Origin: Deltaproteobacteria bacterium | GTDB taxonomy: Bacteria > Desulfobacterota > Desulfuromonadia > Geobacterales > Pseudopelobacteraceae | Assembly (NCBI GenBank): GCA_021779135.1 | Contig: JAJYBH010000018.1 | Span: 1 to 36,466, forward strand | Direction of reading: 5' to 3' | DNA length: 36,466 nt | In this document: in pieces, positions 8,167 to 27,357 of the stretch | Layout of the letters: every line of letters starts with the position of its first letter | How positions within the stretch are numbered: position 1 is the stretch's first letter | Position numbers and translations under genes: made by a program | The notes under the pieces: generated by a model | The model's database searches: none | Told to the model about the DNA's origin: nothing | The model's input: the letters and a program-made list of their open reading frames with translations, nothing else

Positions 8167-9417
8167 CTACACCAGCAGCGAAACCGGCTTTTCCAGGATG
8201 CCCCGCAGTTCCGCCAGGAAGCGGGCCGCATAGGCGCCATCGATGACGCGGTGATCGCTGGACAGGGTTACGCGCATCGTTGCGGCAGCATGCAGCTGGC
8301 CATTGCGAACAACCGGCCGCTCGGTGACGGCGCCTGCCGCCAGGATGGCCGTCTGTCCTGGCATGATCAGGGCGGTAAAATCATCCACACCATACATGCC
8401 CAGGTTTGATATCGAGAAGGACGCGCCGCTCATCTCTTCGGCGGAGAGCCGCCCGTTGCGACATTTTTCAACAAGACGCGCGGTTTCAGTGCCGATCTCT
8501 GTCACCGTCAGGCTGTCGCAGCGTCTGATAACCGGCATCAACAGACCATCCGGCAGAGCCACGGCAAAGCTGATGTGCAGGCCGTCGCCGGCTGTTGAAT
8601 TCGCAGGGCAGAGCAGCGGAAAGTGCGCCAGCGCGCTGGCGCAGGCCTTTGTCAGGAGAACATTGTATCCAACCGGGTGTGATCCGGTCTTCAGCTCGCG
8701 TATGATCTCGCGGCAGGCCTCCATGTCAATTTCAACCGTGACGCTGAAATGAGGGATGGTCTGCCAGGATTGGGTGACCGCAGCCGTTATCGCCTGACGC
8801 ATGGATCTGGCCGGCTTGGCCGCAGGCTCCTCTGGCTGGGGCGGCTGAGTCGTTTCGGCGGAAGGAGCCCGAGGAGGCGTGGGCTTCTCTCCCTTCTGCG
8901 CGGATTGTGGCGGAGTAAATCCCGCCAGGTCTTCCTGGGTGATTCTTCCGTCCGGGCCGCTGCCGTGAACCTGTCCCAGATCGATGCCCTGATCGCGTGC
9001 CAGGCGGCGCACCAGGGGCGAAGCCTTCTCATGCTCCTGTTCGGTGTGGACTGCTGCTGGCTGCGGTGCGGCTGCCAGTTGCGGCGCTGCCGGAGGCTCT
9101 GGAGCAACTGGCGCTGCCGCGGGGGCGGCTGCTTCAGGCTCGTTCACGGGTGCCGCGGCAGGTTCCCCGGCGAGTTCTCCCGCTTCACCGATCAGCCCGA
9201 GTACGGTTCCGACCGGAACAAGTTCGCCCTCCTTGGCCATGGTCTTGAGCAGGACTCCTGAAGCAAAGGCCTCCAGTTCCATGACCGCCTTGTCTGTTTC
9301 CACTTCGGCAATGATGTCGCCGCGTTCGATGCGGTCGCCAACCTTCTTGCGCCAGCCGGCAAAAAGCCCCTCCGTCATGGTATCGGACAGCTTGGGCATG
9401 GTAATTTCTTTGACCAT
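8167..9417 (-). CDS. pdhC: Dihydrolipoyl acetyltransferase, E2 of pyruvate dehydrogenase
   Basis: This 416-residue acyltransferase forms the core of a 2-oxoacid dehydrogenase complex. An N-terminal lipoyl domain (about residues 1-80) carries the lipoylated Lys43 in VETDKAVMELEA. An Ala/Pro-rich linker follows. A peripheral-subunit-binding domain spans about residues 133-170 (SPLVRRLARDQGIDL, then GSGPDGRITQEDL). The catalytic domain ends with HRVIDGAYAARFL, where the His and Asp are the catalytic pair. A second Pro/Ala linker separates it from the binding domain. AAGGAG lies 7 bases before the ATG. pdhB lies 225 bases upstream, with an unusual repeat region between them. Acetoin dehydrogenase E2 is the main alternative. 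Confidence 0.92.
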   Translation of the reverse strand: MVKEITMPKLSDTMTEGLFAGWRKKVGDRIERGDIIAEVETDKAVMELEAFASGVLLKTMAKEGELVPVGTVLGLIGEAGELAGEPAAAPVNEPEAAAPAAAPVAPEPPAAPQLAAAPQPAAVHTEQEHEKASPLVRRLARDQGIDLGQVHGSGPDGRITQEDLAGFTPPQSAQKGEKPTPPRAPSAETTQPPQPEEPAAKPARSMRQAITAAVTQSWQTIPHFSVTVEIDMEACREIIRELKTGSHPVGYNVLLTKACASALAHFPLLCPANSTAGDGLHISFAVALPDGLLMPVIRRCDSLTVTEIGTETARLVEKCRNGRLSAEEMSGASFSISNLGMYGVDDFTALIMPGQTAILAAGAVTERPVVRNGQLHAAATMRVTLSSDHRVIDGAYAARFLAELRGILEKPVSLLV

Positions 9418-9642: not shown

Positions 9643-10629
9643 CTAATAACCGCCGGACAGGACGTCCCTGATTGCCTGTTTGATCGTCTCGGCCTGGGGG
9701 ATGCAAATCTTTTCGATCTTGCGCGAATAGGGCATGGGCACGTCCAGCCCGGATACGCGCCTGACCGGGGCCCGGAGCACGTCGAAACACTTTTCGAAGA
9801 TGATGGAGCTGATTTCCGCTCCCAGGCCGCAGGTGCGCCAGCATTCCTCAACCACCACGGCCCGGCCGGTCTTGCGGACCGAGGCCAGGATGGTCTCCGT
9901 ATCCAGCGGCGCCAGGCTTCTCAGGTCGACTACTTCGCAGGAAACGCCTTCCCTGGCCAACTCTTCCGCCGCCTGCAGTGCCAGGATCGTCATGCGGCCA
10001 TAACCGACGATCGTGACCTGCTCGCCCGCCCGCTTGACCTCGGCTTGGCCGATGGGCACCAGGAACTCCGGGTCTTCCGGCACTTCGCCCTTGCTGTTGT
10101 AGAGCAGCTCGTGCTCCAGGAAGATCACCGGATTGTTGTCGCGGATGGCGCTTTTCAGCAGCCCCTTGGCATCTGCCGGTGTGGCGGGGTAGAGCACGCG
10201 CATGCCGGGGCAGTGCATGAAAAAGGTCTCCAGGCTTTGGGAGTGCTGGGCGCCCAGCTGGCTGCCGCCCCCGCCCGGCATGCGGATCGTCATGGGCAGA
10301 TGGGTCTGGCCGCCGAACATGTAGCGGATCTTGGTCATGTGGTTGACGATCTGGTCCATGGCCAGCAGCGCGAAGTTGACGGTCATCAGCTCGGCCACCG
10401 GTCTCAGGCCGCCCATGGCCGCACCGATGGAAACGCCGATGATCGTGTTCTCGGAGATGGGGGTGTCCTTGACCCGCTCCTCACCGAACTCCGCCAGCAG
10501 GCCCCGTGTAACCTTGAAAGAGCCTTCGTACAAGGCCACGTCCTCACCCAGCACAAACACCGACGGATCGTGTCGCATCTCTTCCTTCAGGGCCAGATTC
10601 AACGCATCTCTATAGGTCATCTCAGACAT
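9643..10629 (-). CDS. pdhB: Pyruvate dehydrogenase E1 component, beta subunit
   Basis: This 328-residue subunit pairs with E1 alpha to form the thiamine-diphosphate-dependent decarboxylase of the complex. Typical segments are FVLGEDVALYEG near residue 25, DTPISENTIIGVSIGAAM, TVNFALLAMDQIVNH, MPGGGGSQLGAQHSQ and the C-terminal domain VDLRSLAPLDTETI. The frame is open for a further 99 codons upstream, but the real start is ATG at 10629: it has GGGAGGA in front and matches the family N-terminus (MSEMTYRDALN). The start overlaps the end of pdhA by 8 bases, implying coupled translation. Confidence 0.94.
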   Translation of the reverse strand: MSEMTYRDALNLALKEEMRHDPSVFVLGEDVALYEGSFKVTRGLLAEFGEERVKDTPISENTIIGVSIGAAMGGLRPVAELMTVNFALLAMDQIVNHMTKIRYMFGGQTHLPMTIRMPGGGGSQLGAQHSQSLETFFMHCPGMRVLYPATPADAKGLLKSAIRDNNPVIFLEHELLYNSKGEVPEDPEFLVPIGQAEVKRAGEQVTIVGYGRMTILALQAAEELAREGVSCEVVDLRSLAPLDTETILASVRKTGRAVVVEECWRTCGLGAEISSIIFEKCFDVLRAPVRRVSGLDVPMPYSRKIEKICIPQAETIKQAIRDVLSGGY

Positions 10630-11599
10630 AGATATCCTCCCACACCGCACTGTCTTCCGGCCAGGGCGACTCTTCCGCGAATTGTACGGATTCGTCAACC
10701 AGTCGTGCACAGCCGGCCTCGATGCCGTCCAGTTGTTCGCGTGTCGCGATCCCTTCCTCAAGCAGCTGGTTGGCAAAATTGGGCAGCGGGTCGCGGGCCT
10801 TCCAGACATCATGTTCGGCCGCGGAGCGGTATTTGGCCGGATCGGCCATGGAGTGCCCGCGGAAACGGTAGGTGGTCGCCTCGATGAAGTAGGGATGGCC
10901 GCTCTCGCGAACCTTTTCGGCGGCATATTTGACCGCCTTGTAGACGGCGATCACATCCATGCCATCCACCTTCTCGGAGGGAATGTCGTAGCCGCAGGTG
11001 CGCTTGTGGATGGAGGCCAGGGCCGAGGAACGGTGCACCTCGGTGCCGATGCCGTAGAAATTGTTCTCGCAGATGAACAGCACCGGCAGTTGCCAGAGTT
11101 GCGCCCAGTTGAGGGACTCGTGGAAGGTGCCCTGGTTGACCGCGCCGTCGCCGAAGAAGCAGGCGGCGATGCGGTCCTCGCCGCGGTAGCGTGCGGAAAA
11201 GGCCAGGCCGACCGAAATGGGGAACTGCCCTCCGACGATGGCGTAGCCGCCCATGAAGTTCAGGCTTGGGTCGAAGAGGTGCATGGAGCCCCCCTTGCCC
11301 TTGCAGATGCCGGTGGACTTGCCGAACAACTCGGCCATAACCCTGCGGGGATCGGCGCCCCGTACGATGGCCTGGGCATGTTCGCGATAGGCGGAGAGGA
11401 TGTAGTCATCCTTGTGCAATCCGGCCGTTGCGCCGACAGCCACCGCCTCCTGGCCGCTGTACAGGTGCAGGAAACCGGTGATATGGCCTTTGGCATACTG
11501 TTCCGCGCAGCGCTCTTCAAACTCCCGGGAAAGGAACATCTTTTCATACAGTTTGATGAGTTCCTGATCCGGCAGTACCATGCGTAATCTGGTTTGCAT
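10622..11599 (-). CDS. pdhA: Pyruvate dehydrogenase E1 component, alpha subunit
   Basis: This 325-residue subunit carries the thiamine-diphosphate motif GDGAVNQGTFHESLNWA ... FICENN (the GDG-N motif) at about residues 165-200, together with GFLHLYSGQEAVAVG and the phosphorylation-loop-like region YRFRGHSMADPAKYR. The length matches bacterial heterotetrameric E1. I chose ATG at 11599, because GGAGG sits 5 bases in front of it; GTG at 11605 would lie inside that ribosome binding site. It is the first gene of the pdhABC operon. No E3 dihydrolipoamide dehydrogenase lies in the operon, so E3 must come from elsewhere. Acetoin dehydrogenase alpha cannot be fully excluded. Confidence 0.93.
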   Translation of the reverse strand: MQTRLRMVLPDQELIKLYEKMFLSREFEERCAEQYAKGHITGFLHLYSGQEAVAVGATAGLHKDDYILSAYREHAQAIVRGADPRRVMAELFGKSTGICKGKGGSMHLFDPSLNFMGGYAIVGGQFPISVGLAFSARYRGEDRIAACFFGDGAVNQGTFHESLNWAQLWQLPVLFICENNFYGIGTEVHRSSALASIHKRTCGYDIPSEKVDGMDVIAVYKAVKYAAEKVRESGHPYFIEATTYRFRGHSMADPAKYRSAAEHDVWKARDPLPNFANQLLEEGIATREQLDGIEAGCARLVDESVQFAEESPWPEDSAVWEDIYV

Positions 11600-11691
11600 G
11601 TTCACCTCCGTGATGTTAGGCCGGTATGCTCATAACTTGGCTTTCTATTGACAGTATGGCAGATTTTCCGGAGCGAAAGAATGTAATTCAG

Positions 11692-11768: not shown

Positions 11769-11820
11769 TGAAAGGAGAAGATGATTCTGAGTCTGTTTTT
11801 TTCCGGAAGGAGGGAGAGGC

Positions 11821-12258
11821 ATGTCATCATATACGATAACCTGCAGTTCGTGCGGGACGGTAAACAGGATTCCCGCCGATAAGCAGGGAAAAACGGGACG
11901 TTGCGGCACGTGTCACAATCCCCTGCTAGCGTTGTATTTTCAACCCCAGTCACTCAACGAGCGGAGCTTTGACGACTTTGTGAAAGGCTATCATGGCCCG
12001 GTTCTGGCTGAATTCTGGGCGCCGTGGTGACCGCACTGTGTCTCGTTCGCACCGGCGGTGCGAAAGGTAGCAGAGCTGTTGGCCGGAAAAGCGGCTGTCG
12101 TGCAGATTAATACCCAGGAAAACCCCACCCTGGCGGGACGCTTTGGTGTGCGTGGCATTCCGGTTGTGTATCTGCTGAGAAACGGCGGGGTCGTCGATCA
12201 ACTGGCAGGAGCCCAGACAGCGGAAGCTCTTCTGGCCTGGTTCAGGCGTCATCAGTAA
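11821..12258 (+). CDS. Selenocysteine-containing thioredoxin with N-terminal zinc ribbon (UGA read as Sec70)
   Basis: The reading frame covers 145 residues if the TGA at 12028-12030 is read as selenocysteine. Residues 1-35 form a zinc ribbon with Cys8, Cys11, Cys28 and Cys31, as in thioredoxin 2 (TrxC). Residues 45-145 are a complete thioredoxin fold. The active site reads EFWAPW-U-PHC, with the UGA exactly where the first redox cysteine of CxxC belongs and Cys73 as the resolving residue. Downstream conserved features are intact, including the GIPVVYLLRNG cis-proline segment. A hairpin with the properties of a bacterial SECIS starts 16 bases after the UGA. AAGGAGG lies 9 bases before the ATG. 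Known biology: Sec-containing thioredoxin-like proteins occur in deltaproteobacteria. The alternative, a nonsense mutation of a TGC or TGT codon, is less likely because the 76 codons beyond the UGA are fully conserved in character. Function would be thiol-disulfide or peroxide-linked reduction in the cytoplasm. Confidence 0.85.
12046..12064 (+). promoter_or_regulatory. Bacterial SECIS-like hairpin
   Basis: TTCGCACC (12046-12053) pairs perfectly with GGTGCGAA (12057-12064) around a 3-base loop GGC. The loop lies 23 bases after the UGA codon and begins with G. Both values fit the published general properties of bacterial SECIS elements (loop about 16-37 bases from UGA, G among the first loop bases). 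It lies inside the coding sequence, as bacterial SECIS elements do. Confidence 0.7.
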
Positions 12259-12443: not shown

Positions 12444-12764
12444 ATGGTCACTTTTGTCGAATCGCCACTGTTCACGAAACAGGTTCACGATTACCTGACA
12501 GATACCGAATACGGAGTCTTTCAGGAATATCTTGCCGCCAATCAAGATATGGGCGACATTGTACGCGGTTCCGGCGGGGTTCGCAAGGTGCGCTGGAGCC
12601 GTCGAGGGACCGGCAAGAGCGGCGGTGTCAGGGTACTCTATTTTGCCCGGACAGAGGCCGGGCAAATCTGGTTGCTTCTGATTTATGCCAAGAGTGCCGT
12701 TGACAGTATTCCCGGTCACATTCTCAAAGCCCTCAAAGAGGAGATGGAACATGCCACTAAATGA
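12444..12764 (+). CDS. higB: HigB/RelE-type toxin
   Basis: This 106-residue protein matches the RelE/HigB-like toxin family: it begins FVESPLFTKQVHDYL, has the basic core GVRKVRWSRRGTGKSGGVRVLYF and ends LLLIYAKSAVDSI. Such toxins are ribosome-dependent mRNA endonucleases that are neutralised by an adjacent antitoxin. The gene precedes its antitoxin, the order typical of higBA, and the two overlap by 14 bases. No Shine-Dalgarno sequence is visible before the ATG, and the promoter -10 box ends 7 bases upstream. Confidence 0.85.
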   Translation: MVTFVESPLFTKQVHDYLTDTEYGVFQEYLAANQDMGDIVRGSGGVRKVRWSRRGTGKSGGVRVLYFARTEAGQIWLLLIYAKSAVDSIPGHILKALKEEMEHATK

Positions 12765-13062
12765 AAAAGAACTGCTTGAACGTGATGCAAAGCGCAACAT
12801 CGGCGAGGAACTGATCCAGGCCGTGCGGGATCTCAAAGCTGGCAGGGTCGGGCGAGTGTCTACCATAGAAGTCTCTCCTCTGGCAGCGTCCCGTCTCAGG
12901 ATTGGCCTCTCCCAGAGTGAGTTTGCCAAGCTGCTCGGTGTGTCGCTCCGTACCCTTCAGGAGTGGGAGCAGGGGCGTCGTACGCCGTCGGGCGCGGCAA
13001 AGTCACTTATCACTATTGCCATAAAAAAACCGGATGTTTTGAAAGAGCTGCTTGCTGCCTGA
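12751..13062 (+). CDS. higA: HigA/NadS-type antitoxin with XRE helix-turn-helix
   Basis: This 103-residue protein has an N-terminal toxin-binding region (about residues 1-50) and a C-terminal XRE-type helix-turn-helix: SRLRIGLSQSEFAKLLGVS then LRTLQEWEQGRRTPSGAAK. It should neutralise the toxin and repress the operon through the dyad at 12417-12435. The start ATG at 12751 lies inside the end of the toxin gene (14-base overlap); an in-frame start at 12685 would sit deep within the toxin gene and lacks family character. Confidence 0.87.
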   Translation: MPLNEKELLERDAKRNIGEELIQAVRDLKAGRVGRVSTIEVSPLAASRLRIGLSQSEFAKLLGVSLRTLQEWEQGRRTPSGAAKSLITIAIKKPDVLKELLAA

Positions 13063-13569: not shown

Positions 13570-14982
13570 TTATTCGGCACAGCAGGAGAGCAGGCTGATA
13601 TCACGGTTGAAGCCCTGGGCGCACAGCTTGAGCCCTTCGCCGATGGAGGGATAGACATGCATCGTGGTGGCGATATCGGTCACAGTTGCCCGCATGTGCA
13701 GGGCCAGAGCAGCTTCATTGATCATGTCCGCCCCCCGGTGGCAGACCAGGTGAACCCCCAGGATCCGCCCGGTAACACGGTCGGCTATCATCTTGATCAC
13801 GCCATCGGTCTGTCCGATTACATGCGCCTTGGGTATCGCACTAACCGGCATGCAGTTGACGATGCAGTCGAAGCCGGCCTGACGTGCGCTTTCCTCGCTG
13901 TGCCCCACCATGGCTACTTCCGGGTCGGTAAAGATCGCCATCGGCGCTAGCAGATAGTCCATGGTGCACCCGCACCCCCGGTTGAACATGTCATCCACCG
14001 CAACGATACCCTCACGGGCGCCGACCGTGGCGATCATCATCTTTCCGACCACATCGCCGGCGGCCCAGATACCGTCAGCGGTTGTACACATGTTCCTGTC
14101 GGTGACGATGAATCCCTTCTCGTCCAGGGTTACGCCGGTCGTTTCCAACCCGATGCCGGCTGTGGCCGGGGCGGTGCCGACCGCCAGAAGCAGTTTTTCG
14201 CAGGTGAATTTATGGCGTCTTTCATCGACATCCGCATAAACCACGTTCAGATTCCCGAGTCTGTCCAGGGAACATATCTTCACGTTGGTTACGACCGTGA
14301 TCCCTTCCCGTGTCAGGATTTTTTCCAGCGAGGTTGACAGCTCGGGCTCGATGTTCGGTAACAGGCAGGGACCATGCTCAAGGATGGTTATCCGGCACCC
14401 CAGACGGTGGTACATCTGACCCAGTTCAACGGCGATCACGCCCCCGCCGATGATGACGAGGGAGGCCGGCAGTTCCTTCATCAGCAGGGCGCTGCGGCTG
14501 GTGTAGTAGGAACACTTCTCCATCCCCGGAATATTGGGGATGCGGGGTGTTCCTCCCACCGCGATGAGTACACGCTCGGAGCGGTAGATATGGTCGTCAC
14601 ACTCCACGGTGCGGGCATCGATGAATCGCGCGGTGCCCTTGATCAGTTCCAGGCCCTTCATGTTACCGAGAACGTTGAGATAGCGCTCCTGACGCAAGTC
14701 GGTTACCACCTTTTCGCGATGCCTGAAGAGCCGTTCCGCGTCGATGGGATGGTTGCCGTCATCGCTGTCGACTCCAATCGTGCTTCCCAGGTGGGCTTCA
14801 TGTCTGAAGAGGGCGGCATGAATGAGCGTTTTACTGGGTATGCACCCCCAGTTGATACAGGTCCCTCCCAGTACACTTTTCTCGAACATCAGTACCCGCG
14901 CACCGTAGTTGGTGGCGCGCAATGCGGCAGCAAATGCGGTGGAACCGGATCCGAGTATTATCAGGTCATATCTGGAGTTCAT
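13570..14982 (-). CDS. merA: MerA-like mercuric reductase (FAD/NAD(P)-dependent disulfide oxidoreductase)
   Basis: This 470-residue flavoprotein has an FAD-binding loop ILGSGSTAFAAALRA, the redox-active disulfide GGTCINWGCIPSK (Cys42 and Cys47), an NAD(P)-binding loop VIIGGGVIAVELGQMYHRLG, the FAD segment WAAGDVVG, and a C-terminal tail HVYPSIGEGLKL ... LSCCAE. The vicinal cysteines Cys467-Cys468 and the tail tyrosine are hallmarks of mercuric reductase, which transfers Hg(II) between these cysteines and the active-site pair before reducing it to Hg(0). The N-terminal metal-binding (HMA) domain is absent, as in many MerA proteins. ATG at 14982 is preceded by GAAGAGAG. Dihydrolipoamide dehydrogenase is unlikely because of the C-terminal CC pair. 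No merR, merT or merP is adjacent. Confidence 0.8.
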   Translation of the reverse strand: MNSRYDLIILGSGSTAFAAALRATNYGARVLMFEKSVLGGTCINWGCIPSKTLIHAALFRHEAHLGSTIGVDSDDGNHPIDAERLFRHREKVVTDLRQERYLNVLGNMKGLELIKGTARFIDARTVECDDHIYRSERVLIAVGGTPRIPNIPGMEKCSYYTSRSALLMKELPASLVIIGGGVIAVELGQMYHRLGCRITILEHGPCLLPNIEPELSTSLEKILTREGITVVTNVKICSLDRLGNLNVVYADVDERRHKFTCEKLLLAVGTAPATAGIGLETTGVTLDEKGFIVTDRNMCTTADGIWAAGDVVGKMMIATVGAREGIVAVDDMFNRGCGCTMDYLLAPMAIFTDPEVAMVGHSEESARQAGFDCIVNCMPVSAIPKAHVIGQTDGVIKMIADRVTGRILGVHLVCHRGADMINEAALALHMRATVTDIATTMHVYPSIGEGLKLCAQGFNRDISLLSCCAE

Positions 14983-15088
14983 GCATACTCTCTTCGACTC
15001 TGCCAGCATGTCGCACGCAGAAATGGAATTTCTTCACTCTGTAAGGCTGTTACTCCGGCAACCTCTTGTACAAGCCGCTGGAGCGACT

Positions 15089-16766: not shown

Positions 16767-19700
16767 ATGCTATACAACAAATGCGCGGGTTTATCTGCGC
16801 TTTCATTAATACTTTTGTTTTCATTGATATTTTCTATTTTTCTGGTATGTGCGTCAAATAACGATGCGGTTGCCGCCATTCAGTGTTATGACTGCCACGG
16901 AACGCGCACAACCGTTGACAACCGGCCTGAGGATGCATCCTTTAGAAATGTCTCTACCGGCGGTTTCCCGGGAAACCACCAGCGGCACCTAGCCTATGGG
17001 GCAACTCCCAATTCCTGTCAGAAATGCCATCCCGGCAGCGCCGGTTACGTCTCAAGCCATAGGGACGGTCGAATCAAGATCTCCGGCAACATAAACTCCT
17101 CACCTCTTGTCACGACCTATCACAACTCCACCTCCGCCTTCCCCCAGACCGCAACCCCGACCCTGGCCAGTTGCAACAGCGTCAACTGCCACTTCGAATA
17201 CGGTACCCCGGACTGGGGAAGCGATCCCCAGAATACAAACTGCAGTACCTGCCATGCCTCCCCCCCCTCGGATGGCAGCCACCCCGGACTCACCGGCTCC
17301 GGCAAGAAGCATGGTGATTACCTCGGCACCGGCACCGGAAGCTGCATCAAATGTCACGCGAACAACACCACCTTTGCCCATGCCACCAGTGCCGGCAAGC
17401 GTGGCCTGGTGGTGAGATTCACCGCCGCGCCCAACAGCGGCGGCAGCTACAGCAGTGACGTCAGTTACCCCAAATACCTGCCGAGCCAGTCCCCGGCCCG
17501 CAACGGCACCTGTTCAGGCATCTATTGTCACAGTGATGGGCGGGGTGGCCCCGCTCTGATAACCCCGCAATGGTCGGGCGCGGATCCTCTCCCCTGCTAT
17601 GGATGCCATCGCGGCCGCACCACCGACAGCAGCCAGGCCAACTGCAACAGCAGTGTCGTGCAGGGGATCTGGTCATCCTCCAGCAGCAAATGCGTACCCG
17701 ACCTGACCATGTCGTCGAACGGCCATCATCGCCTGGTCGGTCCGCAGTGGATCAGGAAATATCCCTGCTACTACTGTCACAACAATACCGTTGACACATC
17801 CGGAACCATAAAAAACACCGCGGTCCACGACAACGGCGGCAAGGATGTAAAGATCGCGCCCCAATGGAACATCCTCGGGAGGTATTCCGCCAGTTACAAC
17901 CCGTCGACCAAGGTGTGCAGCGATGTGTATTGCCATAGTGATGGCACCACCGATCCCGAGGCGGTCAGGCCGTTTGCCTGGACCGAACCGAAGACGGAGT
18001 GCAACTCCTGCCACGGACATCCTGCCGGAACCTGCTCAACCGACACCTGCCACGACGGTAAAATCCACCCGGATGGCAGGCTCTGGGCAATAAAGACAGG
18101 CTATCCTCCCGGCAGCGAATGGATGGGGGCGATGCCGATGTTCCCCAACCAGGGTGCGGGGACGGCCCGCGCCAACTCGCATCCCCGCCACAGCCAGACC
18201 AATTTTACCTGCGATAATTGCCACGCCGCCACGGTCATTAACGGCTCCTGTACCACCTGCCATGCCGGCGGAATCCCCGCCGGCGGCATGGGTGAAGTGG
18301 CCCATATCAACCCGACATATCACGTCAACAAGAACAAGGATGTCGTCTTCAAGGATGGCGGCAGTTACGACGCCCTTGGAAAAACCTGTTCGGGCACCAC
18401 CTGCCACAGCGGCACCATCGATCCGGTCTGGGGCGGTTCGGTCAATGGAGCGGTCACCTGTCTGGGGTGCCATGGCGGCACAACGGACGTTGACGACTTC
18501 GGGTCATTCAATGGCGTCCAGGCCAAGATCAATATGGGGCAGTGGTACACGAGCGGCCATGGCCGCTACTCCTCGTCGGGCAACTATCCCGAATCCGGCA
18601 ACCCGGCCGCCAACTTTCCCGGCAATCCCTGCTGGTACTGTCACGACAACAACGTACTGCACAAAGATGCGGCCAACCCCTACCGCTTGCGCCACCATAC
18701 GCAGTACGAGCAGCGTTTTGAGAAGGAATGCGTCTACTGTCACATGCAGGGGTTGGACAGTGAATGTCTTGCCTGCCATAACGCCGCGGAATCGCTGGCG
18801 CCCCAGTTGGCCAGCACGGCAGTTGTTACGCTGCACGGCGGCACTCCAATGTCAGGCTGCCGTAACGGCGGCTGCCACGATACGGATGCCACGCTGCACA
18901 AAACCGACAGCGTCAGATTCTGGAGCAGTTCCGAGAAGGCGGATGTCAAGAATCAGTATGTCATGATGGGGGTCTGTCTGCAGTGCCATGACGACGATTC
19001 CGGCGGCCAATGCACCAGCTGCCACACCGCGCCGGTCGATAATCCGCTGAAGTATTCGCTCGGTTTCGATCCCAAGGTCGAAGGGAGCCGCTTTGTCAAG
19101 CCTAAGAAAGCCCGGGCCTCGTCGTCGCACTTCGGCTACAAGCACTATCGCGCCTATCAGACTGACGGCACCTGGATGGGGGGTAAGTTCTGCTGGGATT
19201 GTCATGACCCCCATGGCGATTCGAATATCTTTATGATCCAAGGCAAGGTGGCAACTACCACCGATGGCACCTTTGGCATACCGCTGACCCGCGCTGATGT
19301 CGTCTTCAGCCAGAAGAGGTCCGGAACCGATTATGTGCGCATCAAGGACCCGCAAAACCCGGATTTGCCGATAAACGGCATCTGCAATGTCTGTCATGTG
19401 CCGACCGGTAAGCATTACACCAGAAATGGCGGCGATTCACACAACCTCGGCCGGGTCTGCACGACCTGCCACGAGCACCGCTTTGCCGACAGCCACGCCA
19501 ACAAACAGAGCTGCGACAGTTGCCACAGCAACAAGAAGCCGGTTCCCAAGCATACGGCATTCGGGCTGCCGCGCGACTGCACCAAGTGCCACAACGGCAC
19601 GATCAACCAGCGCATGGATGTCATGGGACAGTTGAAGTCCAATTCGCACCATATCCAGGGCACCGAGGTCAACAACCGCCACTGCTATGCCTGTCACTGG

Positions 19701-21299
19701 GAGGCTACCCCCGAGGGGCTGATCGACGTCCGCCACCACGAGGGGTACAACTTCAAACAGTACACCTCGGTTAAGAATGCCAAGGTCGATCTGGTGGTCT
19801 GGCGTCCGGGGACCAGTTCAACAATCGGCGTTCGCCCCACCTATTACAACAGCACCACCTCCATCCAGTTCCTGGCAGCCAATATGGGTACCGCCGGAGA
19901 GCGCAACGAGGTGTCCAAGGTGAGCAACCATTGCCTGGGGTGCCACAGCGACCAGAACAATGACAACGCTCCCTTTGAAAACGATTGCCGGACACCGCGG
20001 CAGTACGCCTGGGATCGCCAGAGCGTCGCTTCCCGCTATTCCCAACCCGGGACCACGACCTGGGGCAAGTACAACTCGAATACCTACCCGGCCGCCAACA
20101 AGAAGGATACGATCGTCAAGGCGTTTTCGGCCCATGGCAATGCAGCCGGCAACAAAGGTGGCTGGAGCGCTGCCAGCGGATATGACGCCGCCATTCCGAT
20201 AACGCGGGGAGCCGCCGGCACACAGAACGTACAATGCTTTGACTGCCATAACTCGCACGGTTCCAAGGCGGTCGGAACTACTTCCAGCTACGTGACCTTC
20301 AACGGCACCAGGAATGGCGCCAATCTCAAGGAAACCCAGAAAGGGAAGGGCGGCTACAATGTCACCTATAAGGCGTCGGCGAACACTGCCGGTGTCAACC
20401 CGTACAACACCGGAGCCGGGCAGTGTTTTGACTGCCATGAAACCGCCAGCGGCGGCATAACCACCCCCTGGGGGTACGCGTCGACCTTCGGTGCGGCCGC
20501 ACCGGTCATGGGCTACCAGGACACCCCGCATTTCGGGGCCGGGTCAAAGGGTTCGGTTGCCCGCTACGACTACCGCGATTCCCGGAAAACCATCGTGAGC
20601 AGCCATCTCAAGGCCCAGACCTTCCTGAATTATTCCGCGCAGGGGACGATCAACGGCCTGTGCACCCCCTGCCATGACCCGCATGGGGTAAGCAAGACGC
20701 TGGGCGCCAATCAGGAATACGCGGTGCCGCTGCTCAAGGGTACCTGGATGACCTCGCCCTATCAGGAGGACAAGCCCGAATCGCGGCCGAGCGGTTCCAC
20801 CGGTATCTATGCCCAGCCCCCCTGGCGTACCGACCGGAACACCTTCTCCAACATGTATGACAACAGCAAGCGCATCCGGGAGAGCGCCGACAAATTCGCC
20901 GGCCTCTGTCTGCAGTGCCATCGCCAGGAAAAGCTGACTGACGGCGTCAACAAGAATACCCCCTTCAAGAGTCTCGACCGGGTACATGAGTCGGTCCAGG
21001 GCTGGGGCGCCAATGACGAGCATTCCTATCCCTGCTCCAAGTGCCATCAGCCGCACAGCTCCGGTCTGCCGCGCCTGCTGCAGACCGACTGCCTCAACGT
21101 CAATCATCGCGGCAACGTGGCCTCCGGTGGCTATCCCAACCAGAGCGGCTGGCGTGCAGGCAGGGTTTACGGTTTCCCCATGGGCACCTATGCCTACAAT
21201 TACGGGTTCCGCTGCCACACGGATACCTACAACAAGGATGACAAGTACTGGCCTCCCAACGCGGCCGGCGCCCGTTGGAACAATGTCAGCCCCTGGTGA
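16767..21299 (+). CDS. Giant multihaem c-type cytochrome with CXXCH and CXXXXCH sites
   Basis: This 1510-residue exported cytochrome has a signal peptide (hydrophobic residues 9-30, cleavage probably after DAVAA). I count 27 CXXCH motifs (from CYDCH near residue 40 to CSKCH near residue 1430) and 6 CXXXXCH motifs (CNSVNCH, CSGIYCH, CSDVYCH, CSTDTCH, CSGTTCH, CRNGGCH), so up to 33 covalent haems. The six long motifs all fall in the first half, in alternating order with CXXCH motifs, the pattern of the Geobacter CxxxxCH/CXXCH repeat family. The last 300 residues have fewer motifs and are Gly/Ser/Tyr-rich. Many histidines provide distal ligands. Electron transfer at the cell surface or in the periplasm is the likely role. 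GAGGGGG precedes the ATG. It heads a long co-oriented cluster. Confidence 0.95.
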   Translation: MLYNKCAGLSALSLILLFSLIFSIFLVCASNNDAVAAIQCYDCHGTRTTVDNRPEDASFRNVSTGGFPGNHQRHLAYGATPNSCQKCHPGSAGYVSSHRDGRIKISGNINSSPLVTTYHNSTSAFPQTATPTLASCNSVNCHFEYGTPDWGSDPQNTNCSTCHASPPSDGSHPGLTGSGKKHGDYLGTGTGSCIKCHANNTTFAHATSAGKRGLVVRFTAAPNSGGSYSSDVSYPKYLPSQSPARNGTCSGIYCHSDGRGGPALITPQWSGADPLPCYGCHRGRTTDSSQANCNSSVVQGIWSSSSSKCVPDLTMSSNGHHRLVGPQWIRKYPCYYCHNNTVDTSGTIKNTAVHDNGGKDVKIAPQWNILGRYSASYNPSTKVCSDVYCHSDGTTDPEAVRPFAWTEPKTECNSCHGHPAGTCSTDTCHDGKIHPDGRLWAIKTGYPPGSEWMGAMPMFPNQGAGTARANSHPRHSQTNFTCDNCHAATVINGSCTTCHAGGIPAGGMGEVAHINPTYHVNKNKDVVFKDGGSYDALGKTCSGTTCHSGTIDPVWGGSVNGAVTCLGCHGGTTDVDDFGSFNGVQAKINMGQWYTSGHGRYSSSGNYPESGNPAANFPGNPCWYCHDNNVLHKDAANPYRLRHHTQYEQRFEKECVYCHMQGLDSECLACHNAAESLAPQLASTAVVTLHGGTPMSGCRNGGCHDTDATLHKTDSVRFWSSSEKADVKNQYVMMGVCLQCHDDDSGGQCTSCHTAPVDNPLKYSLGFDPKVEGSRFVKPKKARASSSHFGYKHYRAYQTDGTWMGGKFCWDCHDPHGDSNIFMIQGKVATTTDGTFGIPLTRADVVFSQKRSGTDYVRIKDPQNPDLPINGICNVCHVPTGKHYTRNGGDSHNLGRVCTTCHEHRFADSHANKQSCDSCHSNKKPVPKHTAFGLPRDCTKCHNGTINQRMDVMGQLKSNSHHIQGTEVNNRHCYACHWEATPEGLIDVRHHEGYNFKQYTSVKNAKVDLVVWRPGTSSTIGVRPTYYNSTTSIQFLAANMGTAGERNEVSKVSNHCLGCHSDQNNDNAPFENDCRTPRQYAWDRQSVASRYSQPGTTTWGKYNSNTYPAANKKDTIVKAFSAHGNAAGNKGGWSAASGYDAAIPITRGAAGTQNVQCFDCHNSHGSKAVGTTSSYVTFNGTRNGANLKETQKGKGGYNVTYKASANTAGVNPYNTGAGQCFDCHETASGGITTPWGYASTFGAAAPVMGYQDTPHFGAGSKGSVARYDYRDSRKTIVSSHLKAQTFLNYSAQGTINGLCTPCHDPHGVSKTLGANQEYAVPLLKGTWMTSPYQEDKPESRPSGSTGIYAQPPWRTDRNTFSNMYDNSKRIRESADKFAGLCLQCHRQEKLTDGVNKNTPFKSLDRVHESVQGWGANDEHSYPCSKCHQPHSSGLPRLLQTDCLNVNHRGNVASGGYPNQSGWRAGRVYGFPMGTYAYNYGFRCHTDTYNKDDKYWPPNAAGARWNNVSPW

Positions 21300-21342
21300 T
21301 CGAATGTATTCAGACACGCTAAACACCATTACGAGGATAGTT

Positions 21343-24300
21343 ATGAAGATAGTGAACAATAGATCCCGGCTGCTGTCGCGGAGAGGCTGTCATTGGCCGA
21401 TCTCCGGTGTGTGTTGCGGCTTGCTGCTCGGCATGGCTGTCACCCTGCTGTCCGGATGGTGTACCTCCGCATATGCCGTCGGCGGTGACACGATCTCTCC
21501 CTTTCCGAAGAACGATGCCCGTAGCGGCCTGCAACGTGCAACCGCGGCGGTGGTGGATAACGGCGGTAACCAGATTGTCGCCGGGTATCAGAACCTGAGC
21601 GGCGGGACGGATGACGAGTATCTGACCGTCAAGGTCAATACTGATGGTTCGGTGGCGTGGCGTTCCACCCATAATCACTCAACGGGGTCGGACCGGATTG
21701 TTGCCGTCGTGGTCGACGGCAGCAACGATGTCATCGTGACCGGCTATGTCTGGAACGGCTCCAACAACGATATCCACACCATAAAGTACCGTGGTACGGA
21801 CGGAAGCGTGGTCTGGGAGGATACCTGGAACGGTGCGGCCGGAGGGGCCGACATGGCCACCTCGCTGGCCTATGATCCCGTCAACAATCTGCTCTATGTG
21901 GCGGGCTCTACCCAGAACGGCGGCGGTTACGACGATTTTGCCATCCTCAAATACGCAAACTCCTCCGGCGGTCCGGCCAACCCGCCCAGCGGCGTGTATA
22001 CCTATAACGCCACCGGCAAAGGCCCTCACCGGATCAAGGCCGTGGCGGCCAATGCCGGCGGATTTGTAGTGACCGGCGAATCCTATAACGGCACCGATTT
22101 CGACGCGCTGACCGTGCAGTTCACCCTGGCCGGCGTCAAATTCCACGAGTGGAGTTACGCATCCAGTGGCGGGCAGTACGATGCCGGCAAAGCGGTCGCG
22201 TTCGATTCCGCCGGAAACATCGTGGTGGCGGCCAAGGTGTCCAATACAGTCAACACTGATATCATGCTCCTGAAATATGACGCCTCCAGCGGGGCCGTGG
22301 TGTGGCAGAAAAAGATCGACGGCGGCTTCGATGATGAACCTGCAGGGCTGGCGGTGGATGGAAGCGATATCTACCTGCTGGGGATGACCTGGACCCTGGC
22401 CGGTCATGAGGACTTCTATCTGGCCCGGCATCTCGGCACGACCGGTGACCCGGTCTGGTCCGGCGCCCTGGTCTACAATTCCGGCGGCGCAGATGCCGAT
22501 TTCCCGGTCGGGCTGGCCGTGGGAGCAGGTGCCAACGGAGGTGTCTTTGTAACCGGCTATGCGATTACCGTTGTCAGCAATGACATTCTGACCATCAAGG
22601 CGGCCAAGGCCAATGGGACTCTGCTCTGGCAGCAGCGCTACAACGGTACCGCTGACCGGGACGAGCGCCCGGCCGGCATAGGCCTCGCCGCATCAGGCGC
22701 CGTGTGTGTTGCGGGCTGGACGGACGCCTGGAGCGGCGGCGCGACGGACTATGACCTGTTGTCGCTCAGATATGATTCTGGCCCTCTCGACCCGCCCAGC
22801 GCACTGACGGCGACCGCCGTTTCCAATACTTCGATCCAGCTCAACTGGACCAACAACGCCTCCAATGCCGACGGCTACAGAATCGAACGCAAACTGGGCG
22901 ACTCCGGCAGCTATGTGGAGATCGCGACGGTCGGCCCCGCTGTCGCCACCTATGCCGATCCGGGATTGACAGGCGAAAATTATTATTACTACCGCGTGCG
23001 GGCCTACAATGCCGCCAATGGCAACTCCGCCTACAGCAACGAGGCGCATGCCCTGACCAAGGTTGTCAGTTACGTTTCGCCGGTCTGGACCTTCCTCTAC
23101 AATGGCGCCGCCAACAGTGAAGACTATGCCCTCTCCATTGCTGCCGGCAGTGACGACCATCCGGTTGTCACCGGCTACAGCACGCTGGAAGAGGAGGGTG
23201 TCCCGGGCAGTTTTTCGACGGATTACTATACCCTGAAGCTGGACCGGACCAGCAAGGCCGTCAAATGGAATGCCCGATACGACAGCGGTTCCGGCGGCAT
23301 GGACCGCGCTACCCTGGTCTCGGTCCTGCCTGACAACGATGTACTGGTCACCGGCAATGCCTATCTGTCCGGGGCCGGCGGGTTTGATACGGACGAGATC
23401 TATACCATTAAATACCAGGCCTCGACGCACAGTGACCCCCTGCAGCCGCCGCCCGAACTGTGGCACGACCAGTTCGGCTACAGCGGTTCCGATCGTGCCT
23501 CGGCGGTGGCCGTGGCGACCGATGCCTCCAAAAAATCGGTCATTACGGGATTCGGGACCAATGCATCCGGCAACGACGACATCTACGTGATCAAGTACAA
23601 CGCCGATGGCAGCCGCTCATGGCCGGCCGCCATCTATGACAGTGGCCGCTATGAGTATCCCACTTCCGTGGCATTTGACACCGCCGGCAATGTCTTTGTA
23701 ACCGGTTATACCGAGAGCGTGAGCGGTGATACCGACTGGTTCACGGCCAAGTATGACGGTGCAACGGGGGCGCTGCTCTGGTCGGATACCTTTGACGGCG
23801 GTATTCACGGCAATGATTATGCCCGTTCGCTGGCTGTCGATGCAGCCGGCAATGCCTATGTTACCGGCTACATTACAACCGCTGGTGGCCAGGATTTCCA
23901 TACAATAAAATATGATGGCGCCGCGGTATCCGCGCAGCGCCGGATCTGGGAAAAGAGTTATGACGGTCCGGTGCATGGCGACGATGAAGGTGTCTCCGTC
24001 AAGGTAGATCCGATCGACGGCGCCGTGATGGTGACCGGGACACAGACCACCGCCGCCGGTGATACCGATTTTCACCTGATCCGCTATCAGGCGGCAGACG
24101 GTGCGATAGTCTGGGAGCGGACCTTTAATCGCCCCGGCAGCTATGAGTACCTCTCCGCCATGACCCTCGACTCATCCGGCTACATCTACGTCACCGGAAA
24201 CAGCCGGGGCGGCCCGGACTATGATGCAAGTTTTGACGCATCATCCAATATCCTTTCGCTGATCTATGATTTTGAGGGGACATTCCTGGGGGCGCTGCTC

Positions 24301-27300
24301 AATAATGGCGGGGGCAGGCAGAATGAGGCCGAGGCCATAGCCGCGAACAACCGGGGCGAGGCCTTTGTCGCCGGTTTCTGGAAGAATGCCGCCGGCAACG
24401 GGGATTATGCCGTGCTTAAACAGACCAATAGCTACATCCTGGTTCCGGCCCCGCTGACCGTTACGCCGCAGGCCGATTATACCAGGCTGCGGCTGGGGTG
24501 GCAGGAAAACAGCCCCGGGGCCTCATTCCGGATCTGGCGCACCCTGGGGCCGGCTACCCCGACCAGTGACTGGGGTACCCCGATCTACGACGGTCCGGCG
24601 GGTGTCAGCACCTTTGACAATAGCGGACTCGGGCAGGGGATCAACTACTGTTACCGGATCGAGGCCTACATCGGCAGTCTGAATTCAAGGCGTATCATTG
24701 CCTGCGCGACCACGACCCTGCCGGCGGCAACCCTGGCTGTCCCCCAGGTGATCTCGACCAGCCAGATCAACCTCTCCTGGGGCAACGTTCCGGCCAACAG
24801 CGGCTACCGGATCGAGAGAAAGATCGAGGCCGGCGCCTGGAGCGTGCTGGCCGAAACGGCAGCCGATGCGACCAGCTTTAGCGATAGCGGCCTTACGGCC
24901 GGCACACTCTACTCGTACCGGCTAACCGTCTTGAATGCCGGCGGGGTGTCCGCGACCAGTAATGAACGATCTGCGACAACTATCCCGGATGCACCGCTAC
25001 AGAGTGCGCCGACAGCTATTACCGCAACACAGGCAACATTGAACTGGAGCAATGTCTCGGGGGAAACCGGCTACAAGATTGAGCGTAAGCAGGGTACGGG
25101 CGGCAGCTGGTCGCAGCTTGCGTCAATCCCGAGTCCGAACGTCGTAACCGCTAACGACAGCGCGCTCACAGCGAATACCCAGTACTACTACCGCATCCGG
25201 GCGACGAATGCCGCCGGGGATTCCGTCTACAGCAACGAGCAGGGAGTGCTGACGCTGTTTGATTCGACCGTGTTGAGAGCCGCCGCCGGAACTTCAACCG
25301 CCACGATCGATCTGAGCTGGGACAATGTCGCCGGAGAGACCGGGTATACCATCCAGATGGGGGCTTGCGGCTACAATGGCGGATCGTATGACATCCCCTA
25401 CTGTATTGCCGCCTATGACTGGGCCTGGAACGGTTGGGTGAATCTGGCCACGCTGGGGCCCGACGTGACAACCTATCAGCACGCCGGCCTGGCAGCCGGG
25501 ACCGCGTATCGCTACCGGATTATCGCCAATGTTGCCGGAAACAGTTCCGCCCCCAGTAATACAATGATAGGATGGACCGCCCTGGCAGCTCCGGCGACCA
25601 TTGATGTCGCTCCTGCCTCGCAGACCGCGCTGACGGTCTCCTGGAGCGATGTTACCGGCGAAACCGGGTATGCCGTCGAACGCACCCTGGCCAGCCCGGT
25701 GAGCTGGGCCGTGGTTGCCGGCGCCGGTGCGCTGGCCGCCAACACCGTCTCGTATGCCGATAGCGGGTTGGCGCTTCAGACGGCCTACTGCTACCGGGTC
25801 AGGGCGATCAGCAGCATTTCCGGAACCTCTGCCACCAGTGCCGAGAAATGCCTGTCAACGCCCTTATCGGCTCCGGCGCTGAATGCCCCGATTACGGCGT
25901 CTACCACCCAGATTGACCTTTCCTGGAACAATATCAGCGGTAATACCGGCTATGAACTCCAGAGGCGTACCCTCAACGACCCGAATAATCCGGCCGGCGG
26001 AGCCTCGGAAGGGGAGTGGGGCGCTTGGGGCGCGTCGGTCGTTATCCCGGCGGACACGACATCATATTCCGCCACCGGACTTACCCCGGGATACACATAC
26101 CAATTCAGGGTGCTGGATACCTATAGCGGCGGGAAATCGGCCTGGAGCAACCTGCGACAGTTGACTACCATACCGCCGGCCCCGCTGATCAGCGGGGTGC
26201 GGATCGACTCTACCTCGCAGATGACGATCCTGTGGAATGATGTGTATGGTGAGACGAGCTACGGTCTGGAGTGGAAAGCCGGCAGCGGCGGGGCCTGGAG
26301 CGCGCCGATACCTGTGGCTGTCAACGCTGCGAGTTATGCCCACAGCGCCCTCACTCCCGACACGACCTATTACTACCGCATCCGGGCCACCGGCCCCGGC
26401 GGCACCTCGGCATACAGCGCGGAGGTTTCACAAACCACATCGCTGCCCCAGCTGAATCCGCTGACCGGTATTACTGCCTCCAGGATTGACCTCTCCTGGA
26501 ACTCGATTCCAGGCAATAGCGGCTATACGATCGAGCGCAAGATAGAAAATGGCGCCTGGGCCACCCTGATCACCACGGCGGCCAATGCGGTTGCGTATAC
26601 CGATACGGGGCTGACTGCCGGCACCCTCTATTCCTACCGCCTGAAGATGCTGACCGGAGCCGGCGCGACAGCACCAACCAATGAACAAGCCGCGACCACA
26701 ACGCCCGCTTCGACACCCCTGACGGTTACCGTGGTAAACGCATCCCAGGCGCAGTACTCATGGCCGGTTACGCCGGGTGCAACCAATTACAAGATCAGCA
26801 GAAAACCGGGGAGTGGCGGGGGCTATGTGGAGATTGCAAATATAGCCGCCGGTTATGCAAGCAGTTATTGCGGATATCCGGTACCCCGCATCGATTGCGC
26901 GGCGCCCACGCCGCTGACGGTCAGCGGCATTGATGGTGGTCTGGCCGGCAATACCCAGTACTGCTATAAAATAATCGCCTGGAACAGTACCGGCGGTGAT
27001 TCGGCCTCCAGTGCGGATGTGTGCGTGACAACCTCCGGGCTGGCAAATGACAATCTTTCGGCGGAGGCGCTCAATTCCTTCAAGGTCAGGCTGTCCTGGA
27101 CGGAGCTGTCCTGCGTCCCGGTCTCGTGCGCGGCCCCGCAAGGGTATGAATTGGAGCGCAAGGTCGCCTATGGTACCTGGACATCGGTAGCAACCGTCCC
27201 CGGTTCACAAAAAGAATTTACTGATACCTACGGATTGGAGCCGCTCAAGGTCTATACCTATCGCGTCCGCTCCTACAGCGCGGCAGACCACTCGCCGTAC

Positions 27301-27357
27301 AGCGAGACGAGCATCACGATGCCTGCCTACCAAGCGGACGACACGGCCTGCCAATGA
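21343..27357 (+). CDS. Secreted beta-propeller / fibronectin type III repeat protein
   Basis: This 2004-residue protein has a signal peptide ending near residue 46 (SGWCTSAYA). Residues about 48-480 are propeller-like repeats with recurring IVVTGY and TIKYD units. One fibronectin III domain follows (about 480-570), then a second block of the same propeller repeats (about 572-1030), then ten more fibronectin III domains to the C-terminus. I count 11 such domains, each with the core GYRIERK ... YYYRVRA. No catalytic motif is seen. The protein should be exported and may serve as a scaffold or adhesin for the neighbouring cytochrome. ATG at 21343 has GAGG 7 bases upstream and begins the signal peptide; the open frame extends 119 codons upstream inside the cytochrome gene, which I reject. 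Confidence 0.88.
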   Translation: MKIVNNRSRLLSRRGCHWPISGVCCGLLLGMAVTLLSGWCTSAYAVGGDTISPFPKNDARSGLQRATAAVVDNGGNQIVAGYQNLSGGTDDEYLTVKVNTDGSVAWRSTHNHSTGSDRIVAVVVDGSNDVIVTGYVWNGSNNDIHTIKYRGTDGSVVWEDTWNGAAGGADMATSLAYDPVNNLLYVAGSTQNGGGYDDFAILKYANSSGGPANPPSGVYTYNATGKGPHRIKAVAANAGGFVVTGESYNGTDFDALTVQFTLAGVKFHEWSYASSGGQYDAGKAVAFDSAGNIVVAAKVSNTVNTDIMLLKYDASSGAVVWQKKIDGGFDDEPAGLAVDGSDIYLLGMTWTLAGHEDFYLARHLGTTGDPVWSGALVYNSGGADADFPVGLAVGAGANGGVFVTGYAITVVSNDILTIKAAKANGTLLWQQRYNGTADRDERPAGIGLAASGAVCVAGWTDAWSGGATDYDLLSLRYDSGPLDPPSALTATAVSNTSIQLNWTNNASNADGYRIERKLGDSGSYVEIATVGPAVATYADPGLTGENYYYYRVRAYNAANGNSAYSNEAHALTKVVSYVSPVWTFLYNGAANSEDYALSIAAGSDDHPVVTGYSTLEEEGVPGSFSTDYYTLKLDRTSKAVKWNARYDSGSGGMDRATLVSVLPDNDVLVTGNAYLSGAGGFDTDEIYTIKYQASTHSDPLQPPPELWHDQFGYSGSDRASAVAVATDASKKSVITGFGTNASGNDDIYVIKYNADGSRSWPAAIYDSGRYEYPTSVAFDTAGNVFVTGYTESVSGDTDWFTAKYDGATGALLWSDTFDGGIHGNDYARSLAVDAAGNAYVTGYITTAGGQDFHTIKYDGAAVSAQRRIWEKSYDGPVHGDDEGVSVKVDPIDGAVMVTGTQTTAAGDTDFHLIRYQAADGAIVWERTFNRPGSYEYLSAMTLDSSGYIYVTGNSRGGPDYDASFDASSNILSLIYDFEGTFLGALLNNGGGRQNEAEAIAANNRGEAFVAGFWKNAAGNGDYAVLKQTNSYILVPAPLTVTPQADYTRLRLGWQENSPGASFRIWRTLGPATPTSDWGTPIYDGPAGVSTFDNSGLGQGINYCYRIEAYIGSLNSRRIIACATTTLPAATLAVPQVISTSQINLSWGNVPANSGYRIERKIEAGAWSVLAETAADATSFSDSGLTAGTLYSYRLTVLNAGGVSATSNERSATTIPDAPLQSAPTAITATQATLNWSNVSGETGYKIERKQGTGGSWSQLASIPSPNVVTANDSALTANTQYYYRIRATNAAGDSVYSNEQGVLTLFDSTVLRAAAGTSTATIDLSWDNVAGETGYTIQMGACGYNGGSYDIPYCIAAYDWAWNGWVNLATLGPDVTTYQHAGLAAGTAYRYRIIANVAGNSSAPSNTMIGWTALAAPATIDVAPASQTALTVSWSDVTGETGYAVERTLASPVSWAVVAGAGALAANTVSYADSGLALQTAYCYRVRAISSISGTSATSAEKCLSTPLSAPALNAPITASTTQIDLSWNNISGNTGYELQRRTLNDPNNPAGGASEGEWGAWGASVVIPADTTSYSATGLTPGYTYQFRVLDTYSGGKSAWSNLRQLTTIPPAPLISGVRIDSTSQMTILWNDVYGETSYGLEWKAGSGGAWSAPIPVAVNAASYAHSALTPDTTYYYRIRATGPGGTSAYSAEVSQTTSLPQLNPLTGITASRIDLSWNSIPGNSGYTIERKIENGAWATLITTAANAVAYTDTGLTAGTLYSYRLKMLTGAGATAPTNEQAATTTPASTPLTVTVVNASQAQYSWPVTPGATNYKISRKPGSGGGYVEIANIAAGYASSYCGYPVPRIDCAAPTPLTVSGIDGGLAGNTQYCYKIIAWNSTGGDSASSADVCVTTSGLANDNLSAEALNSFKVRLSWTELSCVPVSCAAPQGYELERKVAYGTWTSVATVPGSQKEFTDTYGLEPLKVYTYRVRSYSAADHSPYSETSITMPAYQADDTACQ

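Follow-up and report, generated by a model that had tools for sequence, protein, structure and literature searches.

Does the single in-frame UGA of a thioredoxin-like gene in a 36,466-nucleotide stretch of Geobacterales DNA (hereafter the window; contig JAJYBH010000018.1 of assembly GCA_021779135.1) end translation, mark a decaying gene or specify selenocysteine (Sec)? On comparative sequence evidence, we consider it very probable that the product is a cytosolic thioredoxin-2-type selenothioredoxin, with the UGA kept for Sec insertion guided by a downstream hairpin and with selection acting on the full-length protein (Table 1). Support for Sec as the first redox residue of the active site comes from conservation among orthologues, a covarying hairpin, purifying selection on both sides of the UGA, and the co-occurrence in this genome of selA, selB and a selD that itself contains Sec. 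A split and easily misannotated gene becomes, on this reading, a well-supported selenoprotein.

Table 1 Features of the predicted selenothioredoxin gene and its divergent neighbours in the window
Feature	Position	Strand	Remark or basis
Putative Sec-containing thioredoxin-2 (TrxC-like) gene	11821..12258	+	145 residues, with one UGA predicted to be read through
Shine-Dalgarno-like AAGGAGGG	11807..11814	+	Precedes ATG at 11821; sequence
Zinc ribbon, C8-x2-C11 and C28-x2-C31	11842..11913	+	Profile match, alignment
In-frame UGA, predicted Sec, residue 70 (nucleophile)	12028..12030	+	Orthologue comparison
Cys73, predicted resolving residue of the U-P-H-C motif	12037..12039	+	Alignment
Predicted bSECIS hairpin, 8-bp stem, GGC loop	12046..12064	+	Comparative evidence and published bSECIS model (PMC13188914)
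Pro114 codon	12160..12162	+	Invariant proline (alignment)
Pyruvate dehydrogenase E1 alpha	10622..11605	-	TIGR03182 over cut-off; divergent from the thioredoxin gene
Pyruvate dehydrogenase E1 beta	9643-10926		Follows E1 alpha
Pyruvate dehydrogenase E2	8167-9417		Follows E1 alpha, with E1 beta

The frame consists of 69 codons, the UGA and another 75 codons before its stop. The first-pass annotation of the window had proposed a two-domain thioredoxin with Sec in place of the first active-site cysteine, and this is borne out by the domain profiles as well as by the orthologues, hairpin and selection described below. Pfam Zn_ribbon_Thio2 (PF21352) matched residues 7-32 (E 4e-9) and Pfam Thioredoxin (PF00085) residues 44-141 (E 4.6e-24), both over their cut-offs; the UGA, already assigned to the nucleophile position in that annotation, indeed falls on the nucleophile within the second domain, in the motif WAPW-U-P-H-C. 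A second open reading frame of 66 codons, also predicted there, is correct if its start is placed at the GTG at 12058. The four zinc-ribbon cysteines are invariant in 50 aligned members of the family, in both Sec and Cys forms, and Pro114 is presumably the cis-proline of the thioredoxin fold. Modelled with AlphaFold2 from 50 family members, the protein had a mean pLDDT of 95.5, and the best PDB matches of the model were the thioredoxin-2 structures 7ysi, 3p2a, 2ppt and 7d6l. Thioredoxin 2 (TrxC), the best match in both structure and sequence, shares the arrangement of a two-CxxC zinc ribbon followed by a thioredoxin domain (PF21352 and PF00085) but carries C-G-P-C, the motif expected of TrxC, where the window protein has Sec and Pro-His in U-P-H-C. 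Since the NCBIfam TrxC equivalog model scored 108.9 bits, below its cut-off of 125, we call the protein TrxC-like rather than a TrxC equivalog. An Rfam scan of the whole window gave no match, and promoter and terminator scans returned nothing exceeding shuffled sequences.

Comparison with relatives yielded 89 gene copies in 84 of 147 genomes. At the codon of residue 70, 76 copies carry UGA, 12 carry a cysteine codon (TGT or TGC; 11 CPHC and one CTHC) and one copy is broken, so that the alignment with Cys-containing homologues suggested earlier places UGA and Cys at the same codon. All 89 copies are confined to one order, across four families of which the UGA copies are spread; in the members sampled from the class's other families, only ordinary thioredoxins occur. 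Purifying selection was detected on both sides of the UGA, with dN/dS of ~0.05-0.25 downstream in most pairs and alike upstream. In the same-genus pair G000/G001, for example, dN/dS was 0.19 before the UGA and 0.13 after it, and other pairs were similar. Frames broken elsewhere in relatives, named in the first-pass annotation as a sign of decay, are represented by one of the 89 copies, and the relatives with an interrupted frame otherwise have the UGA at the same codon. This sole broken copy (G134:C76, L118 / L180) contains, in addition to the UGA for Sec, one TAA and a further TGA. Sequence errors are possible in it, because the contig title (cov_2.3) indicates low coverage.

The hairpin TTCGCACC-GGC-GGTGCGAA has arms at 12046-12053 and 12057-12064 and a loop at 12054-12056, with all eight pairs exact, and the first base of the stem is the 16th past the UGA, just as had been noted from the window alone. 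Published bSECIS constraints call for a loop of 3-9 nt, a stem of 4-16 bp, a G in the first two loop positions and a loop lying 16-37 nt after the UGA (PMC13188914); the window hairpin, with a 3-nt loop starting with G, 8 bp and 23 nt between UGA and loop, fits this model. Single-sequence folding gave only modest significance (z -1.95), and the case for the hairpin is therefore built on comparative evidence. All eight pairs are kept in 69 of the 76 UGA copies, seven in six and six in one, whereas random synonymous recoding with the family's codon usage would be expected to give ~1.4 complete hairpins in 76. Among 30 distinct UGA rows of the alignment, 97.1% of cells were paired, three pairs had changed on both sides (the third, for instance, from C-G to U-A), and the covariation score was reached by none of 500 shuffles. 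Synonymous codons in the stem are also frozen across the 76 UGA copies (Ala GCA in 74, Pro CCG in 76 and Val GTG in 76), while an equally conserved Ala three codons past the stem uses its four codons 24, 21, 16 and 15 times. This contrast indicates selection on the RNA beyond that on the protein.

The machinery for Sec insertion, which the first-pass annotation had proposed to look for, was found in part. The genome of the window contains selA (C60), selB (C164) and selD (C22), each over its cut-off, and selD has its own in-frame UGA at the active site (AAGUAAK). A tRNA-Sec was not found in the draft: the Rfam model gave tRNA-Ser and others as best matches, ARAGORN found none on the Rfam matches and the selA, selB and selD contigs, and a same-genus tRNA-Sec used as a DNA query had no match in the genome. 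An assembly gap is the likeliest explanation, since the genome is a draft in 221 contigs at 98% completeness. The three same-genus genomes have a tRNA-Sec with a UCA anticodon, the position of which varies among them. In G002 (L243) it adjoins an integrase-like ORF, and tRNA-Sec may serve as an island insertion site. In G009 (C1:59750-60315, L072), a tRNA-Sec gene on the other strand lies 41 nt 3' of the gene for the Sec-thioredoxin. Two genomes with the UGA form, G038 (96% complete) and G040 (92%), have neither SelB nor tRNA-Sec over cut-off, owing either to assembly gaps or to recent loss of Sec use.

On the comparative evidence, we reject three other readings of the UGA: a pseudogene, an ordinary stop, and decoding as Cys or Trp. 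That the codon arose by nonsense mutation of an earlier Cys thioredoxin, now in decay, is barely credible. The additional stops of G134 do indicate that loss occurs in the family, but 76 copies from four families of the order share UGA at this codon, purifying selection acts on the C-terminal part, and the hairpin covaries; conservation of both UGA and hairpin across genera rules out such decay. It is also highly improbable that the UGA is a normal stop, yielding a 69-residue zinc-ribbon peptide and a re-initiated fragment. The second fragment would be without the first beta strands and the nucleophile, and the conservation of synonymous sites in the stem would be left unexplained, even though termination always competes with read-through of UGA, and the UGA form occurs in G038 and G040, with their apparent lack of SelB and tRNA-Sec. 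Decoding as Cys or Trp by another suppressor would agree with the missing tRNA-Sec in the draft; however, selA, selB, the Sec-containing selD and the bSECIS features are present, same-genus relatives have the UCA-anticodon tRNA, and Cys relatives use TGT or TGC at this codon, which makes this reading extremely improbable.

Under the Sec reading, and on established knowledge of selenoprotein synthesis and thioredoxin chemistry, SelB carrying Sec-tRNA would bind the hairpin and decode the UGA. Sec70 would then attack substrate disulfides, Cys73 would resolve the mixed selenosulfide, and thioredoxin reductase would re-reduce the Sec-Cys bond, while the four ribbon cysteines would coordinate zinc, as those of E. 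coli TrxC do. The role of the protein may lie in the thiol-disulfide reduction or the repair of proteins in the cytosol. The Pro-His between its redox residues is the dipeptide of DsbA; unlike DsbA, the window protein has neither the DsbA fold nor a signal peptide and is a thioredoxin-2 scaffold, presumed cytosolic. In thioredoxin variants, the CPHC motif is more oxidising than CGPC. Sec makes a redox pair more reducing and is a better leaving group. By analogy, we infer that Pro-His and Sec may jointly tune the redox potential, with a balance between them that is hypothetical.

In a tree of the family, the Cys copies, 12 in all, fall into three groups nested within the Sec copies: one of ten members, sister to the clade of the window, and two singletons, G025 and G084. 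The tree is unrooted and we infer the direction of change. The hairpin is decayed in the ten-member clade, with 3-7 of 8 pairs and the loop G mostly lost, and is still complete (8/8) in the two single converts, a difference that supports the direction from Sec to Cys, the singletons being recent. These data point to about three Sec-to-Cys reversions. Two near-complete assemblies of the Cys clade, G052 and G063, have neither SelB nor tRNA-Sec over cut-off, and most other genomes of this clade retain both. A broader proposal, which we put forward tentatively and rate at slightly under an even chance, is that of a Geobacterales-specific selenothioredoxin-2 subfamily in which Sec is ancestral, about three Cys reversions have left the SECIS in graded states of decay (intact, half and lost), and the fixed Pro-His combines with Sec to give a redox potential unusual among thioredoxins. 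The series of reversions may be the most useful feature of the family as a dense natural set for Sec/Cys exchange. No change from Sec to Cys was entered for thioredoxin in a 2006 survey (PMC1794560), where Trx has blanks in the last two columns of the table, against about three such changes here, two of them with the hairpin intact. Comparison with a CPHC relative, identical in other respects, makes the benefit of Sec in a thioredoxin directly testable.

The novelty implied by the first-pass annotation is lower than it appeared, as Sec-thioredoxins of Geobacter were on record before (PMC1794560, PMC1914089). In G. sulfurreducens, G. metallireducens and G. uraniireducens, thioredoxin has been catalogued as a selenoprotein (Zhang et al. 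2006, PMC1794560), the G. sulfurreducens protein being GSU3446 (PMC1914089), and one Sec-Trx is listed with biochemical support (PMC13188914). The window gene therefore extends a known class. The Geobacter Trx selenoproteins (UxxC) have in common with it the thioredoxin fold, Sec at the first active-site position and a downstream bSECIS; a zinc ribbon, a fixed UPHC and Sec-to-Cys reversions are undescribed in PMC1794560, PMC1914089 and PMC13188914. GSU3446 is likely the orthologue of the window gene, although the G. sulfurreducens protein was not among the named-genome matches or in the sampled family. The UPHC form, earlier called unusual, is so when compared with other TrxC proteins, which are mostly CGPC, but not within the Geobacterales family, where it is universal; our literature search found no mention of UPHC among the matches listed. 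Outside the order, TrxC relatives from the search have CGPC or a similar motif, with the exception of a TrxC-like selenoprotein with UGHC in two genomes (G241 and G341) that belong to a different family of the phylum. It likewise has a zinc ribbon and a UGA at the same nucleophile codon, but differs in its 38% identity, its motif and its downstream hairpin, and it probably reflects an independent Cys-to-Sec event. The two WUGHC loci are G241:C48:7292-7690 on the reverse strand (L269) and G341:C119:4482-4880 on the forward strand (L270).

The gene neighbourhood bears on whether the selenothioredoxin serves a particular partner. Specialisation for lipoyl-dependent complexes (pyruvate dehydrogenase, glycine cleavage) would accord with the pyruvate dehydrogenase genes that adjoin it in the window and in G001, with the pyruvate dehydrogenase operon directly downstream of the Cys-form gene in five relatives, and with gcvT-H-PA-PB directly upstream in Geotalea-like genomes. 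We nevertheless regard it as unlikely: nuo genes lie downstream in the Geotalea/Geobacter-like clade, which has gcvT-H-PA-PB upstream, an Hsp20-CbpA-CbpM-DegP-membrane protein set lies upstream in the WAPT-UPHC clade, and in the remaining lineages the gene stands beside other, unrelated genes. Only in some lineages do these neighbours suggest a link with lipoyl enzymes or with protein quality control, and their variation by lineage fits a general thiol-redox helper better than one fixed partner. In the WAPT-UPHC subclade (G022, G023, G021, G068, G081 and others; L106, L122), 10 nt separate the thioredoxin gene from the end of the membrane protein gene, which follows those for DegP, CbpM, CbpA and Hsp20 and whose conserved product has a coiled N-terminus.

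Several further genes were seen in the window. A RelE-like toxin and an HTH antitoxin form a pair just 3' of the thioredoxin gene (12444-13062). On the reverse strand at 13570-15009 lies a gene for an FAD disulfide oxidoreductase, which is over the MerA cut-off (490 versus 454 bits), narrowly misses that for lipoamide dehydrogenase, and also occurs near the thioredoxin gene in G001. A large multihaem c-type cytochrome with many CxxCH motifs (16767-21299) is followed by a very long, repetitive protein of secreted type (20986-27357).
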